NCBI GenBank assembly: GCA_001792345.1
Contig: MGGJ01000006.1
Span: 86,656-120,212, forward strand
Length of the DNA: 33,557 bases
Direction: 5' to 3'
From: Candidatus Woesebacteria bacterium RIFCSPHIGHO2_01_FULL_39_32
GTDB lineage: Bacteria > Patescibacteriota > Microgenomatia > UBA8517
Position 1 is the stretch's first letter. Each line of letters starts with the position of its first letter. Positions 507 to 32,776 of the stretch are shown one piece after another. Made by a program: the position numbers and the translations under genes. Under the pieces are notes generated by a model. It saw only the letters and a list, made by a program, of their open reading frames with translations. It did not search any database and was not told the DNA's origin.

Positions 507-1154
507 GTGAATATTCAAAGGGGCATTGTCCATCTTCTATTAGTAGTTGTAATTGTGATCGTTGCAATTGCCGGAGTTGGATATTGGGCATATAAAAATG
601 GGCAGACAAACTTTACTCCTTCTGAAAAACAAAATATTTCAACTACCCCAACCGCAAATCTACCGCGCGATGAAGTTTTGCGGGATTGGAAAACCTATTC
701 GGATCCTACAATTGGTTATGAGTTTAAGTATCCCCCAAAATGGAAACTAGAAGAAGTTTACGAAAATTTAGAATATCTAAACAATATTCTCCAACAAATT
801 AAACTAACTACTCCTGAAGGTAACTATGAACTAATTATTGGAGTGAAACGTTTAAATGATACCTACGCCATAACAGGACGAATGGGTGTGGGTGCAGGAG
901 AATTCTCTCTCCGTGACACCGTTAGTGTAGCAGGTAATAATATTCAAGTAAGTGAATTGATTTGGGAAGGTAAAGTCAAAGAAATTTATTATTCAAACAA
1001 ACTAGGACCAGGCACGCTTGAATTAAATAATCATCAGGTAGTTATTGAATTTAGCCCAACCGCTAAAGCTTATAATGATGAAGTCGATCTTGAAAACTTA
1101 CCTGAAACAACCACGGTTACCCAAATTCTCTCTACTTTCAAATTTACAGATTGA
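507..1154 (+). CDS. Membrane-anchored surface protein (PsbP-like/TFKF paralog family)
   Basis: N-terminal TM segment, DWKTY...GYEFKYPPKWKL motif, C-terminal ILSTFKF; similar to the neighbouring ORFs. Confidence 0.8.
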   Translation: MNIQRGIVHLLLVVVIVIVAIAGVGYWAYKNGQTNFTPSEKQNISTTPTANLPRDEVLRDWKTYSDPTIGYEFKYPPKWKLEEVYENLEYLNNILQQIKLTTPEGNYELIIGVKRLNDTYAITGRMGVGAGEFSLRDTVSVAGNNIQVSELIWEGKVKEIYYSNKLGPGTLELNNHQVVIEFSPTAKAYNDEVDLENLPETTTVTQILSTFKFTD

Positions 1155-1159
1155 AATCA

Positions 1160-1552
1160 CTACGTTATCTTATTGGAGTGTTTTCTTAGCCACGAAGAAA
1201 TTTTGCCGATCTCCGGTTTTTCATTATCAACCAAAACCATAAAATTAGCTGCTTCCATCCTTTTGGCCTTCAAATGATATCCGTTTACATATAAAAACCT
1301 TTTTGTCGATAGCCAAGATGTTCTCTTATTCCCGTCCGTGAATGGATGATTTAAACAAAGAGACTGCAGAAGGCTTGCTGCTTTAAGGAAAATAGTAGGA
1401 TATAAATCTTTTCCCGCAAATGTTGCTTTGGGACGCTCTACGGCAGAATGAAGAAGTGCAAAGTCACGGACCGAAGCCTTAGTGCCAGCCTTTTTAATCA
1501 CTGCTTCGTGAATATAATATACTTCCTCGATATCAACGTACCGCCAACTCAT
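1160..1552 (-). CDS. doc: Fic/Doc family (death-on-curing type) toxin
   Basis: Motif HPFTDGNKRTSW matches the Fic/Doc HxFxDGNKR core; overlaps an upstream AbrB-type antitoxin. Confidence 0.85.
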   Translation of the reverse strand: MSWRYVDIEEVYYIHEAVIKKAGTKASVRDFALLHSAVERPKATFAGKDLYPTIFLKAASLLQSLCLNHPFTDGNKRTSWLSTKRFLYVNGYHLKAKRMEAANFMVLVDNEKPEIGKISSWLRKHSNKIT

Positions 1553-1790
1553 CTAAAATCTCCTTATCTTCTTTGATAACTTTATCTAACCACTTTTTAA
1601 ACTCACCGCTTATTTTGTCTTTAGTGGCTTTCTTTTTCTTAGTTTCTGCTTTACTCACAACAATCCTATTGTCTGACGTTGCTTCAACAACAACCCTACT
1701 CCCCTTTTTAAGTCCTAATTTTTTGGAAATATCCTTAGGGATAGCGACGACATTACTATTACCCGCTTTAAAAACTGTTTGTATTTGCAT
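1533..1790 (-). CDS. AbrB/MazE-type (SpoVT-AbrB) antitoxin
   Basis: VFKAGNSNVVAIPKDISKKLGLKKGSRVVVEATSDNRIVV is a typical SpoVT-AbrB swapped-hairpin domain; overlaps the Doc ORF. Confidence 0.8.
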   Translation of the reverse strand: MQIQTVFKAGNSNVVAIPKDISKKLGLKKGSRVVVEATSDNRIVVSKAETKKKKATKDKISGEFKKWLDKVIKEDKEILDELAVR

Positions 1791-1832
1791 GTTATAACAA
1801 TGTTAGTACCAATTACTTTTTCTGTCAAGTGG

Positions 1833-1847
1833 TGCTACAATAATTTA
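1833..1847 (+). promoter_or_regulatory. Extended -10 promoter (TGCTACAAT) abutting a GTG start
   Basis: Same 22-nt sequence as 492-513; GTG at 1848. Confidence 0.5.
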
Positions 1848-2744
1848 GTGAATAAAAATTCAAAAGGCCTTGCCACGTTCAGTTTACATGAACGTGGCTT
1901 TGTTCACCTTTTTCTTCTTTTTGTCATCGTTTTGATTGGAATTGGTGGACTTCTCTACTACTCCTGGCAAAAGGGTTTGATTAAAACCACACCTACAAGT
2001 TCAAGATCGCCTATCCCAACGAGCAGGAAAGACGAAGCAGAAGACTGGAAAACATACTTTAGTAATGTCTGGAAATATACATTTAAGTATCCTAGTAATT
2101 GGCATCTAGCTCCCGTGAATATAGATGAGGATTACGCTGGAGCCCAAGTACTCTTAAACTACGACGATCAAGAATTAAACAAATATAGAGACGGCAATGG
2201 ATTTCTAGACCTAGATAAAGTAAAAAATCCTCTAGTAAGTATACATATAATTCCAGGTAATTTGATATTTCCTATCAGGCAAGATAGATTAACAGAATCT
2301 GGAACTTTGGCGGATGTTACAATCAACAATTTTAACGAATATATTTTATATTTGGAACACGAATATCCCAAGTTTGACCAGCAGGGAATCGGCTCGCCCA
2401 CTCTCGTACCCAATCCCGAGTTTGATTTTGGAGCAATAAAGACAATTCAATATGTATTTGAGAAGTCGGATGCGGATTACGACATTTCATTTTATGTGTT
2501 TCCAACGAAGGAAAAAAGCATTTATTTAAATATAACAGCAAATAATCTCAAAGGAGTTAGCTTTTTTGAAGCTCCTGAAAGTAATATCGTTCACCAAATC
2601 CTCTCCACTTTTAAATTCACCGGCTCTGAAAGCTCGGAAAGAAAATTCTGTGGAGGTTTTGCAGGAATTGCTTGTCCTGAAGGTTACACTTGTAAGTTGG
2701 ATGGAAACTACCCCGACTCAGGGGGTACGTGTATCAAAGAATGA
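1848..2744 (+). CDS. Surface protein paralog with C-terminal Cys-rich module
   Basis: GTG start chosen from the shared promoter/start context; TM segment, DWKTY...YTFKYPSNW, QILSTFKF, then CGGFAGIACPEGYTCKLDGNYPDSGGTC. Confidence 0.75.
   Translation: MNKNSKGLATFSLHERGFVHLFLLFVIVLIGIGGLLYYSWQKGLIKTTPTSSRSPIPTSRKDEAEDWKTYFSNVWKYTFKYPSNWHLAPVNIDEDYAGAQVLLNYDDQELNKYRDGNGFLDLDKVKNPLVSIHIIPGNLIFPIRQDRLTESGTLADVTINNFNEYILYLEHEYPKFDQQGIGSPTLVPNPEFDFGAIKTIQYVFEKSDADYDISFYVFPTKEKSIYLNITANNLKGVSFFEAPESNIVHQILSTFKFTGSESSERKFCGGFAGIACPEGYTCKLDGNYPDSGGTCIKE
1873..1897 (+). repeat. Hairpin element CCACGTTCAGTTTACATGAACGTGG inside a CDS
   Basis: Arms CCACGTTCA/TGAACGTGG; near-identical core at 30770-30794. 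Confidence 0.75.
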
Positions 2745-3796
2745 ATAAGAATTCAAAAGGCTTTGCACATTTTTTTCTAGTTGTTGTAATTGTAGTTATT
2801 GGAATTGGTGGACTTCTCTACTACTCCTGGCAAAGAGGGTTAATAAAAACAAAACCCAATCAAGAGATCTCTCCTACTCCAACTGTAAGCAGTAACGAAA
2901 CTGCAGATTGGAAAACCTACATCAATAGCGACTATGGATTCCAATTTTCATTTCCACCAAACCTTGCGGCAAATCACGATATTAAGGAAGAGCAATATTA
3001 CGACAATCTTGTAGAAATGCTCTTTGAGTCACAGCAAATATTCGTTCGTGCAATACAAAACGTTGATATTTACCAAGAAGCTGAACCAGAAATGGTCGCT
3101 AATCGTGAATTTTCTGATAGCGGATTCGAGTATGGGGTTAAATCGGAAAAAATAGCAAATTCTCCCGCGGCAGTAATTAAAACCAAAGACGAGGATTATT
3201 TTGCAGCAATAATCTCTCACCCCCTCAAAGAAAACGTATTTATTCAAATCTCAACTAACTTAGGTTCGAACACTTTTGAACAAGTTATCTCCACTTTTAA
3301 GTTCTTACCCAAGCAGTCAGATTGGAGAGTCTACAAAAACGGTAAATATGGCTTTGAGGTAAAATATCCCGGTAATTTTTTCTTTGAAGAGTCAGGTGGA
3401 TCTAACTATCCTCCTTTCGAATTTAGTGTAAGATTTGCAGAAAATCAGTATGAAGAGGCCGAATATAACTATCCTGATATATCTATTATTGTAATTGATT
3501 CTCCGCTATCGCCTAGAGATTTCTTAAATGAGAACGGTTCAGAAGATTCTGTTATAGAAGAGAAAAAAGTCGATAAAGATTACCTATATTACGGAGTCGG
3601 TAACCGTAAAGAAATAAAAATTAATAACCTTGATGCTTTACAGTTTGAATCATTAGCCGTCAGTACAGGTACTATCCACACTATGTTTAAAAAAGGAGGC
3701 TTTATTTTCGACGTTACAAACCGCCTTACTGGAGTCGGAGAGGTGCCAAAAGAAATCTATAATCAAGTCCTTTCTACCTTCAAATTTGTCGAATAA
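2741..3796 (+). CDS. Surface protein paralog with two tandem PsbP-like domains
   Basis: ATG overlaps the previous stop (ATGA). Two DW(K/R)xY...F..(S/V)(F/K)(P/Y)P...STFKF units. Confidence 0.75.
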   Translation: MNKNSKGFAHFFLVVVIVVIGIGGLLYYSWQRGLIKTKPNQEISPTPTVSSNETADWKTYINSDYGFQFSFPPNLAANHDIKEEQYYDNLVEMLFESQQIFVRAIQNVDIYQEAEPEMVANREFSDSGFEYGVKSEKIANSPAAVIKTKDEDYFAAIISHPLKENVFIQISTNLGSNTFEQVISTFKFLPKQSDWRVYKNGKYGFEVKYPGNFFFEESGGSNYPPFEFSVRFAENQYEEAEYNYPDISIIVIDSPLSPRDFLNENGSEDSVIEEKKVDKDYLYYGVGNRKEIKINNLDALQFESLAVSTGTIHTMFKKGGFIFDVTNRLTGVGEVPKEIYNQVLSTFKFVE

Positions 3797-3814
3797 ATAT
3801 GCTAAATTAAATAA

Positions 3815-4426
3815 GTGATTAAATTTCAAAAAGGTTTTATCCATCTTTTTCTACTAATAGTTCTTGCTTTAGTTGTTGTTGGAGGAATTGGGTTTTATGC
3901 ATACAAAAATGGGCAACTAGGAATTACTCCTTCTCAAAGACAAATTAGTATTTCCCCCACTCCGGATCTAACAGCTGACTGGAAAACTTATGTGGATGAC
4001 TATTTTGATTTCGAAATAAAATACCCATCTGATTGGCAATTCACTAAAAACGAAACCAACTGGGAGTATGGTATGCAATTTGTTTGGGCAATATCTCCAG
4101 ATATTATTAAGAAGGATGATGAAGGCAGAGTCATTGAAGGAGTTAGTTTCAATGTTGCCATACACGACAGTAAACAAACTGCGCTTGAAGAATTGGTTAA
4201 AGTCGTTAAAGATGGAGGCGGAATTGAATCTTCTTACACTGTAAACGGAATAAGCGGGATCTTGCTTTACCAGGAAAACTCCCCTTTCAAAAATTCTAAA
4301 AGAAAAGTTTTTGTTGCGCAAAAAGGGGAAATTGTCTATTCAGTAGAGCTGGTGTGGAGCAAACAAAAACCTGAAGCTGAAAAAGTTCTTGACCAAATCC
4401 TCTCCACCTTTAAATTTATAGAATAA
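3815..4426 (+). CDS. Surface protein paralog (TFKF family)
   Basis: GTG start; TM segment, DWKTYVDDYFDFEIKYPSDWQF, QILSTFKFIE. Confidence 0.75.
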   Translation: MIKFQKGFIHLFLLIVLALVVVGGIGFYAYKNGQLGITPSQRQISISPTPDLTADWKTYVDDYFDFEIKYPSDWQFTKNETNWEYGMQFVWAISPDIIKKDDEGRVIEGVSFNVAIHDSKQTALEELVKVVKDGGGIESSYTVNGISGILLYQENSPFKNSKRKVFVAQKGEIVYSVELVWSKQKPEAEKVLDQILSTFKFIE

Positions 4427-30126: not shown

Positions 30127-30651
30127 TTAACTTAGAACAAAATTTCTAAGTAAATAACCCACCGTAAATGCTACAAAAGACGCAAAACCCCCTACTGTGA
30201 ATGTTTCAACTCCACTTTGGAAAACATTCCTTTTAGTGTAAATAGTTCGAAGAATCCCGACTAAGAAAAGTGAAAACCCAACTAATATTGTTGAGGCGAT
30301 AAAAGGAGATTGAATATGAAATAAAAACGGAACCAAGGGTATCAAACCAGCGATGTCGAACGCGAAAAAAGTTACAAACCCATGCTTTAAGGGAGACCCT
30401 TCCTGGCTTCCATCTTTTCCCTTAGTCTCTTCGTATTGAATTTCACTTTTTACTCCTAAGTAATTGCCTGCTGACATCGAAAAACCGTCAGCAAAAAGGT
30501 TGGCAAATCCCAAAATTAAAACTATGTTAGGATCCAAGCCTGCTCCAGCCGAACCAGCGACAACTGCAAATGTTGTTACAACGCCATCGCTTGCTGCAAA
30601 AACTGCATCTGAAAGATATTCTCCCCTTTCATGAATAGTCAAACGCGCCAT
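30127..30651 (-). CDS. VIT1/CCC1 transporter family protein
   Basis: DAVFAASDGVVTTFAVVAGSAGAGL, GFANLFADGFSMSAGNYLGVKSE. Confidence 0.88.
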   Translation of the reverse strand: MARLTIHERGEYLSDAVFAASDGVVTTFAVVAGSAGAGLDPNIVLILGFANLFADGFSMSAGNYLGVKSEIQYEETKGKDGSQEGSPLKHGFVTFFAFDIAGLIPLVPFLFHIQSPFIASTILVGFSLFLVGILRTIYTKRNVFQSGVETFTVGGFASFVAFTVGYLLRNFVLS

Positions 30652-30714
30652 CGTATATCATGTTAGCATAAAATTCCTCTTGCAATGAATAAGGCTTTAT
30701 TTAATAATGATTTC

Positions 30715-30850
30715 AGAGATTGTGTTTAAGGAAATGGGTGTAACTCCCACGCTGTGCCGCAACTGTAAGGTACGTTTAGTTTACATGAACGTACTAAAGC
30801 CAGAAAACTAGCAATCTATAGCCCTGAACAAAGTCGAAGGGTATCCCGTA
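30715..30850 (+). promoter_or_regulatory. Cobalamin riboswitch
   Basis: AAGGAAATGGGTGTAACTCCCACGCTGTGCCGCAACTGTAA ... AAGCCAGAAAACTAGC matches the cobalamin aptamer core. Confidence 0.85.
30770..30794 (+). repeat. Hairpin element GTACGTTTAGTTTACATGAACGTAC in the riboswitch variable arm
   Basis: Core ACGTTTAGTTTACATGAACGT differs at one position from 1875-1895. Confidence 0.75.
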
Positions 30851-30860
30851 GCAGGAAAAC

Positions 30861-31292
30861 ATGAATAAAAAATTCTTTCTTTTCGTTCTCGCAGCCGCAG
30901 GAGTTATTCTCACAGCTTTCTTTCTCATACCTAAATATCAACCAACACAACTTCCTGTTGCTACACCAACCCCTGAAATTAGTTTGAAAAGTGCAACGTT
31001 GGTTATAGATTATGGCGAAGACAACCCTTCAACTTACTCAATAGAATTAACAAACGATTCAACCGCCCTTAGCGTACTCAAGAGTATTTCTGAAAAAGAA
31101 AATGTTCCTCTTGAAACTCAGCAATATGACTTCGGGGTATTCGTAAAATCAATCGGGGGTAAAGCATCCTCTGCCGAAACGGCTTGGATTTATTTCGTAA
31201 ATGGTGAGTCGGGAACAATTGCTGCCGATCAAATGAAAATAAATCCAGCTGATACAGTCGAGTGGAAATACATCCTTCTTTCGGAGGAATAG
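30861..31292 (+). CDS. DUF4430 (transcobalamin C-terminal-like) lipoprotein/surface protein
   Basis: ALSVLKSISEKENVPLE...FGVFVKSIGGKAS...AWIYFVNGESGTIAADQMKINPADTVEWKY. Confidence 0.85.
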   Translation: MNKKFFLFVLAAAGVILTAFFLIPKYQPTQLPVATPTPEISLKSATLVIDYGEDNPSTYSIELTNDSTALSVLKSISEKENVPLETQQYDFGVFVKSIGGKASSAETAWIYFVNGESGTIAADQMKINPADTVEWKYILLSEE

Positions 31293-31295
31293 TCA

Positions 31296-31838
31296 ATGAA
31301 AAAACTATCGTTTCTTTTTATCTTATTTTTTCTTGCTTTCGGTGAAAGAGTCCTTTTCGACTTCGGACCAAACATCGAGTTGGTAACTACGGCGCTTATT
31401 CTCTCCTCTTTTTATGTCGGAAGAAAAAAGAGCTTTTGGCTCATTTTTGCCATCATGCTTTTTTCTGACTTAATAATTGGAAATACTAATATTTTTATCT
31501 TTACTTGGACTGGATTTCTTCTTCCTGCTTTCGTAATACGATATTTTTCTATACCTAAGAGTTCATCTAGAACAAAAGCTACAACAGGCACCATTGCTGG
31601 AATCTTATCAAATGGATTTTTCTTTATCTGGACGAACTTTGGAGTATGGCTTCTTTCAAGTATGTATCCAAAAACCGCACCAGGATTATTAATGTCCTAC
31701 ATTAACGCTTTACCATTTTTACGATATCAACTAACAAGCACTCTTATCTTTGTACCTCTTGGTTTTATTTTAACCGAAACCACAATTAGCTTAATAAAAA
31801 ATTATCGAGCACGGATCCGTGTTCAAGGAATTGGTTGA
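31296..31838 (+). CDS. ECF transporter S component-like/DUF6580 membrane protein
   Basis: Polytopic; FSDLIIGN, FIWTNFGVWLLSSMYPKTAPGLLMSYINALPFLRYQL. Confidence 0.7.
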   Translation: MKKLSFLFILFFLAFGERVLFDFGPNIELVTTALILSSFYVGRKKSFWLIFAIMLFSDLIIGNTNIFIFTWTGFLLPAFVIRYFSIPKSSSRTKATTGTIAGILSNGFFFIWTNFGVWLLSSMYPKTAPGLLMSYINALPFLRYQLTSTLIFVPLGFILTETTISLIKNYRARIRVQGIG

Positions 31839-31900
31839 AATTACCAAACTGTCTCGCAACCGTCATAGTCGGAAAACTAGCGGATTCGAAGTATCCCGAA
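31808..31900 (+). promoter_or_regulatory. Second, compact cobalamin riboswitch
   Basis: AAGGAATTGGTTGAAATTACCAAACTGTCTCGCAACCGTCATAGTCGGAAAACTAGCGG matches the core with almost no P8 arm. Confidence 0.82.
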
Positions 31901-31909
31901 GAGGTGAAA

Positions 31910-32776
31910 ATGCTTACCGAATCCGAACTGCCATTCGTAAGAAGTGTTCTAGCAAATCCTCCCAAGCAAAGGGTCGAAGAAGTTGCTTCGCAAAGCCTAG
32001 AAACCAATAGAATTCCCGATACCTACATTTATAAAGTCGTAGGCGGAAAGTTTTATACTCCAGGGGGAGTGCTTATCGAAGAAAAAATTGATAAAAGTAC
32101 TATTTTAGGACAAACAGAATTCGTCGCTTTTCAAGAAATACAAAAATGGGCGGATGGACAAAATGGTGGATTTTGTGTCTGGTTTTCTCCTCCCTACCCC
32201 GAAATCTATCCTGTTTCTAAAATCATCATTCAGGAAATAGGAAATTTCGATAACCAAAAAATGGTAATAAATAGAGCGATTGTCCTAGACAATGATTCCG
32301 AAGAGCTTCTTGATTTAGCACAACAACTGACACAAGATAGAATCGAAAATTCAGAATATCTCAGGATCACACCAATATTTCCGGATAGAGATAAATTCAT
32401 CTCCTGGTTTCAAAACCTAGCCCTTTATACCAACCAAGTAGATCTAATCAAAAACGGAGTGGATGTTGATGTTAAAACTGATACTTACGCCAAGCTGTCT
32501 GATATAGAAAAATCGGTATCAATTGCTGGACAAAACCAAATACAAGATCAAATTTACCAAGTTGCTTATAAACAAGGTTTAATTGGAAGCGCTTCCGAGA
32601 GTTGCCCGAAAATTTTAAAAACTGTATTTAACGCCGTCTACGAGGATTCAATTGTTTTAAATCCGGGTGAATCAAAATATGTTAAAAATTGCGGTAACTG
32701 CGGAACAACCATCGAATCAGTAATTTCAAAAGGATATCGTTGCAAATCCTGTGGCGGTGAATATAAGGGGTGTTGA
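31910..32776 (+). CDS. Uncharacterised protein with C-terminal zinc ribbon, downstream of a cobalamin riboswitch
   Basis: ATG at 31910 after GAGGTG; C-terminus CGNCGTTIESVISKGYRCKSCGGEYKGC. Confidence 0.75.
   Translation: MLTESELPFVRSVLANPPKQRVEEVASQSLETNRIPDTYIYKVVGGKFYTPGGVLIEEKIDKSTILGQTEFVAFQEIQKWADGQNGGFCVWFSPPYPEIYPVSKIIIQEIGNFDNQKMVINRAIVLDNDSEELLDLAQQLTQDRIENSEYLRITPIFPDRDKFISWFQNLALYTNQVDLIKNGVDVDVKTDTYAKLSDIEKSVSIAGQNQIQDQIYQVAYKQGLIGSASESCPKILKTVFNAVYEDSIVLNPGESKYVKNCGNCGTTIESVISKGYRCKSCGGEYKGC

Follow-up and report, generated by a model that had tools for sequence, protein, structure and literature searches.

How do tiny-genome Patescibacteria import the vitamin B12 required by their ribonucleotide reductases (RNRs)? 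Class-wide, a B12-dependent RNR is present in most of the genomes searched, yet neither CbiQ/EcfT nor FecCD was found in the genome studied here (G000; 1.17 Mb, completeness 95%), which was searched family by family. The stretch of 33,557 nt that we analysed, hereafter the window, corresponds to contig positions C6:86656-120212. A sequence-only reading had placed at 30715-32776 of this window two cobalamin-aptamer leaders, the first preceding a DUF4430 gene and the gene of a DUF6580 membrane protein with an S-component-like fold. It had interpreted them as encoding a surface B12 binder working with an S component. The locus is real. Its coordinates were off by no more than about 12 nt, aptamer 1 beginning at 30703; both leaders scored above the Rfam gathering cut-offs with covariance models; both genes lie in the predicted order behind leader 1 and have Pfam matches; the S-component-like fold was recovered with an AF2 model and Foldseek. 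The order riboswitch-DUF4430-DUF6580, whose conservation had been proposed as a check, is kept in relatives from several families. Thus, none of the outcomes that would have refuted the reading (no Infernal match, no such folds, order not kept) came true. The interpretation itself is supported, with binding and transport still inferred, and the locus provides a concrete candidate for B12 import in these organisms that can be put to the test.

The host, which the earlier reading had expected to be a B12 auxotroph, does contain users of B12. Two different class II (B12-dependent) RNRs (NrdJ), both above the cut-off, and one PduO adenosyltransferase (PF01923) are encoded in a single gene run, C6:73107-81260 (L248:1108-9261), located 36-42 kb from the B12 locus. 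No B12-binding domain was found in the genome, and the class II RNRs are the only B12 enzymes found there. On the transport side, our search of the genome revealed neither CbiQ/EcfT (PF02361) nor the FecCD-type permease that marks a BtuFCD importer. The EcfAAT module that the same reading had suggested looking for is thus not documented, EcfT being not found and EcfA lying outside the scope of the search. Among 95 genomes, the class II RNR model was matched in 87, above the cut-off in 78. DUF6580 was above the cut-off in 24, and NrdJ is present in all 24; this co-occurrence is not significant, given how widespread NrdJ is. Since only about a quarter of the NrdJ-bearing relatives have the DUF4430-DUF6580 pair, the group must possess at least one more B12 route, and most relatives have to rely on such an alternative for import.

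The gene run holding the reductases also encodes a 123-aa protein and a 778-aa TrwB/HerA-type ATPase-like protein (type IV secretion coupling type), the latter identified by its likeness to the protein of relatives. ATPases of this type also occur near B12 genes in other families. A protein of about 787 aa found near many loci was suspected to be a reductase; this was rejected, as it is a TrwB/HerA-type ATPase, and separate genes encode the reductases. In G074, the class II RNR (L082:5633-9145) shows an intein match, and several other relatives have an RNR match that is split at one and the same position of the model, about 282.

All features of the B12 locus described below lie on the forward strand. 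Aptamer 1 (RF00174, 30703..30830) scores 32.8 bits against a gathering cut-off of 31.5, and aptamer 2, an AdoCbl-II riboswitch (RF01689, 31814..31886), scores 38.1 bits against 36.5 and overlaps the final 25 nt of the DUF6580 gene. No further cobalamin riboswitch was found anywhere in the 1.17 Mb genome. We read about 50 homologous leaders side by side. In nearly all of them a short hairpin, P13, directly precedes the start codon, its 3' strand being the ribosome-binding site. The consensus triplets are UGC in L5 and GCA in L13, the latter at the end of the P13 loop. In riboswitch 1, the L5 triplet UGC, read from the sequence, is at 30755-30757 and P13 at 30844..30856; the stem pairs UCC (30844-30846) with GGA (30854-30856), the ribosome-binding site, and the loop CGUAGCA carries the L13 triplet GCA (30851-30853), complementary to L5. 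Relatives keep this stem with covariation. In riboswitch 2, P13 (31894..31905) pairs UCC (31894-31896) with GGU (31903-31905) around the loop CGAAGA. Its L13 triplet AGA (31900-31902) pairs with the L5 triplet UCU (31852-31854), a compensated version of the consensus kiss.

L5 and L13 are fully complementary in 45 of the 51 leaders. When L13 was shuffled among leaders, 38.9 +/- 0.9 matched on average and 45 was reached in 0/20000 trials; this gives no true probability because the leaders are related. The real support for the kiss comes instead from independent, fully compensated variants: UCU/AGA in riboswitch 2, UAC/GUA in G031, which is the closest homologue of the window's DUF4430-DUF6580 pair, and GGU/ACC in G061. 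Compensated changes also occur across leaders in the P13 stem beside the start codon. The stem counts are biased because the hairpin search rewarded stem pairing; it ignored the kissing triplet. This anatomy implies that cobalamin binding, itself inferred, would conceal the ribosome-binding site, by analogy with known cobalamin riboswitches. The leaders share with known L5-L13 kissing-loop riboswitches the aptamer core, the kiss and the ribosome-binding site in P13, but their platform is very short and lies directly at the start codon, and element 2 is unusual in its UCU/AGA kiss and its overlap with a coding region.

Between aptamer 1 and P13 lies an imperfect palindrome, CCCTGAACAAAGTCGAAGGG (30822..30841), present as a single copy in the window and not seen at the equivalent place in the relatives' leaders that were read. 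Resembling sequences of the type GAGCGTAGTCGAAGG sit inside the aptamers of relatives G050 and G058. It looks as if a small repetitive palindrome might insert into leaders of this kind, which we mention as a possibility only.

The first gene behind riboswitch 1 (30861..31292) encodes a 143-aa DUF4430 protein (PF14478, E 1.1e-15, 58.2 bits against a cut-off of 23.8). Because it has one N-terminal hydrophobic segment (residues 3-26), a membrane anchor, and lacks a lipobox cysteine, the protein is probably anchored in the membrane and exposed outside the cell. A profile built from 15 homologues gave four matches in the PDB at E values up to 10, including transcobalamin-2 (E 0.36, weak) and the bacterial DUF4430-like structure 3u7z (E 0.55). 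The same Pfam domain has been reported at the C-terminus of transcobalamin (TCN)-like proteins (PMC4350170). The window's protein differs from transcobalamin and intrinsic factor in consisting of this single small domain on a membrane anchor, without the alpha-barrel domain. We predict that it is a surface cobalamin-capture protein, for which there are no binding data.

The second gene (31296..31838) encodes a DUF6580 membrane protein of 180 aa (PF20221, E 5.9e-23), the predicted cobalamin S component. In Foldseek searches with its AF2 model (pLDDT 89), the best PDB neighbours were the S components CbiM (top), RibU, PanT and ThiT, with TM scores of 0.5-0.64 and probabilities of 0.97-0.99 for the best five matches. 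The protein thus meets the test for a six-helix S-component fold by TM score and probability, though all E values exceed 0.1 (0.2-4). Searching the PDB by profile at E values up to 10 gave a sole match, 6fnp_A (E 0.0024). Entry 6FNP is that of the B12 transporter ECF-CbrT of L. delbrueckii (PMC5997447), and by length (182 aa) and alignment the matched chain is likely the S component CbrT. This B12-specific system therefore provides the only significant PDB profile match of DUF6580. CbrT however uses EcfA/A'/T, whereas no EcfT was found in the window's genome, and the gene layout differs by the DUF4430 partner and the two riboswitches. Since EcfT was not found, the locus does not encode a complete ECF transporter, and DUF6580 is at most a solitary S component. 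BtuM of Thiobacillus denitrificans is a solitary cobalamin S-component homologue (PMC6072759); DUF6580 resembles it in being predicted to carry B12 although no EcfT was found in its genome. The invariant cobalt-ligand cysteine of BtuM has no counterpart, no invariant Cys being present among 16 DUF6580 homologues. That DUF6580 acts as a solitary S component is probable, the absence of a motor, the ligand and transport all being inferred.

The pairing of the two genes is conserved, DUF4430 and DUF6580 being adjacent in all 15 relatives' loci examined. A recognisable cobalamin riboswitch precedes the pair in the genome itself (G000) and in G002, G003, G013, G053, G061, G073 and G087. In G031, G017 and G005 it was identified by inspection, their Rfam scores being low because of inserts in the leader. 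None was seen at the pair in G012, G026, G044 or G066, and in G009 the called riboswitch lies downstream of the pair, upstream of the third gene. We extended the comparison to 80 named DUF6580 loci, of which 73 were classified; they are not an unbiased sample, because they are the best matches to this query. DUF4430 adjoins DUF6580 in 41 of the 46 loci from Patescibacteria (23/28) and Actinobacteria (18/18) and in none of the 27 diderm loci. Conversely, a TonB-dependent receptor adjoins DUF6580 in 12 of the 27 diderm loci and in 0/46 of the others, and the two partners never occur together among the 73. Strong cobalamin riboswitches are present at many diderm DUF6580 loci (L184, L189, L190, L194, L196, L199, L208, L217 and others). 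Diderm B12 uptake operons, formed of a riboswitch, a BtuB-type TonB receptor and DUF6580, thus have the same S-component-like family under cobalamin-riboswitch control, but an outer-membrane receptor replaces the DUF4430 protein. This suggests that the surface-capture part has been swapped between monoderms and diderms while the carrier was retained. The locus also connects two uncharacterised domains with B12 uptake far outside this group.

The sequence-only reading had mentioned a third gene separately and made little of it. This gene, behind riboswitch 2 (31910..32776), turns out to represent a B12-linked family in its own right. It encodes a soluble protein of 288 aa, starting probably at ATG 31910 and not at TTG 31835, with an alpha/beta N-terminal domain, a helical middle, a C-terminal zinc ribbon (C261, C264, C278, C281) and a terminal Cys288. 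No family was above cut-off in Pfam, NCBIfam or PHROGs. The AF2 model is confident (pLDDT 89), and none of its fold matches is, central domain included: apart from zinc-ribbon matches, PDB profiles and Foldseek (PDB and viral models) returned nothing beyond weak PAS/longin-like folds. HypA was considered and rejected, as the match (E 0.002) fell below the HypA cut-off and covered the ribbon region alone. Reading the SPP motif as that of a deaminase was also rejected because the domain holding it has no zinc-binding residues.

Searching relatives with the third protein retrieved homologues in 20 other genomes. A cobalamin riboswitch lies directly upstream of the gene in all 20 testable genomes, own genome counted and one case at a contig edge left out. 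The family is essentially confined to this class (287 genomes of the phylum searched). The riboswitch is also directly upstream in the new strong matches G299 and G308, just before the reading frame in G082, and several hundred bases upstream in G357; in the weaker homologues G062 and G086 the aptamer core was recognised by eye. In many genomes this is the only gene found behind a cobalamin riboswitch, while in G053 a single riboswitch precedes three consecutive genes, for DUF4430, DUF6580 and the third protein in that order. Divergence within the family is very high (mean column identity 16%), but the four ribbon cysteines, C232, E31 and an SP motif are kept. A terminal cysteine follows the CxxC..CxxC ribbon in 28 of 40 members, which is the layout of the NrdJ tail in 10/10 relatives listed. 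The tail of NrdJ, a class II reductase, is redox-active. We regard this resemblance as a lead rather than a demonstration.

In other families, large unrelated-looking genes replace the third gene behind the same riboswitch (L077:6077-7705, L090:5080-6774, L097:5242-7179, L114:5223-6788, L121:5163-6380). Conceivably they are very divergent members of the third family.

Taken as a whole, the locus is likely a B12-responsive scavenging system, in which DUF4430 and DUF6580 would form a capture and uptake pair serving an RNR-dependent user of B12. When adenosylcobalamin is scarce, both riboswitches would leave the ribosome-binding sites open and the three proteins would be produced. DUF4430, facing outwards on its single N-terminal helix, would capture cobalamin in the manner of the transcobalamin/intrinsic factor C-terminal domain and hand it to the six-helix DUF6580, which would carry it through the membrane. 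This step would probably not require an ECF motor, as has been suggested for BtuM; the energy source is unidentified. The PduO adenosyltransferase would then convert it to adenosylcobalamin for the two class II reductases. Made under the same condition, the third protein may be a cytosolic zinc-ribbon factor for B12 handling or for the reductase, a role that is inferred only. Once adenosylcobalamin is sufficient, L5 would kiss L13, P13 would lock the ribosome-binding site and translation would be switched off; this direction of the switch is likewise an inference. Such a locus would explain the B12 supply of the B12-dependent RNR in these microbes.

Four alternatives deserve consideration. The first is that an ECF motor serving DUF6580 exists but went unrecognised or is shared (a divergent EcfT/EcfA), in which case the locus would encode a standard group II ECF B12 transporter supplemented by a surface protein. 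In its favour, DUF6580 most resembles ECF S components, including CbrT, which works with a full ECF module (PMC5997447), and a gene could be missing from a genome that is 95% complete. However, this genome lacks CbiQ/EcfT, as do 91 of the 95 searched, and among pair-bearing genomes only G078 has it. Moreover, diderm DUF6580 genes lie in operons with a TonB receptor, without EcfT among the neighbours checked, and a solitary S component for B12 has a precedent in BtuM (PMC6072759). We consider this alternative unlikely.

A second alternative is that the third protein helps the class II RNR when adenosylcobalamin is short, through a redox-active tail or by holding the enzyme, and is not a factor for B12 uptake or processing. 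Its gene adjoins those of NrdJ and the adenosyltransferase in several families, and the 28/40 members with a terminal Cys share the NrdJ-tail layout. Yet the ribbon likeness is one of layout only, without demonstrated homology; several members lack the terminal Cys; the central domain has no confident fold match; in G053 the gene follows the uptake pair behind one riboswitch. We consider this view unlikely as well. That the substrate of DUF6580 and DUF4430 is not cobalamin itself but a different corrinoid or form of cobalt (cobinamide, pseudo-B12, Co2+) appears very unlikely: although the top Foldseek match, CbiM, is a cobalt S component, and cobalt transporters are also controlled by cobalamin riboswitches, no corrin-synthesis context was seen in the vicinity of the locus, the sole identified sink is the AdoCbl-dependent RNR with its adenosyltransferase, and diderm homologues neighbour TonB receptors. 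Finally, that the leaders have no function, being chance matches or decayed aptamers, is practically ruled out, since, although their scores exceed the cut-offs by 1.3-1.6 bits only, they have a compensated kissing loop and P13 beside start codons, are the genome's only two matches, each ahead of B12-type genes, and have counterparts before the same genes in relatives.

In the literature searched, we found no paper on DUF6580, none joining a cobalamin riboswitch with Patescibacteria and none tying DUF4430 to bacterial B12 uptake. Within the scavenging locus that we favour, the parts of the uptake pair are familiar and only their arrangement is new. The greatest novelty lies in the third gene, which points to an uncharacterised protein family with expression coupled to adenosylcobalamin. 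A bolder joint reading remains possible, though less likely than not, in which this new Patescibacteria family, always or nearly always under AdoCbl-riboswitch control, would be an AdoCbl-starvation factor for the class II RNR, such as a partner carrying a redox tail like that of NrdJ, or a cytosolic B12 handler, and would accompany a motor-less capture-carrier importer.

Two further observations concern the surroundings of the locus. A divergent VIT1-family gene (window 30127-30651) adjoins it, as it does in some relatives (L117:4795-5316, L075:5111-5632). Elsewhere in the window, at 507-4426, four small secreted or anchored proteins are encoded in a run; they look paralogous and have an N-terminal anchor of the type G-F-[AVI]-H-L/F-F-L.
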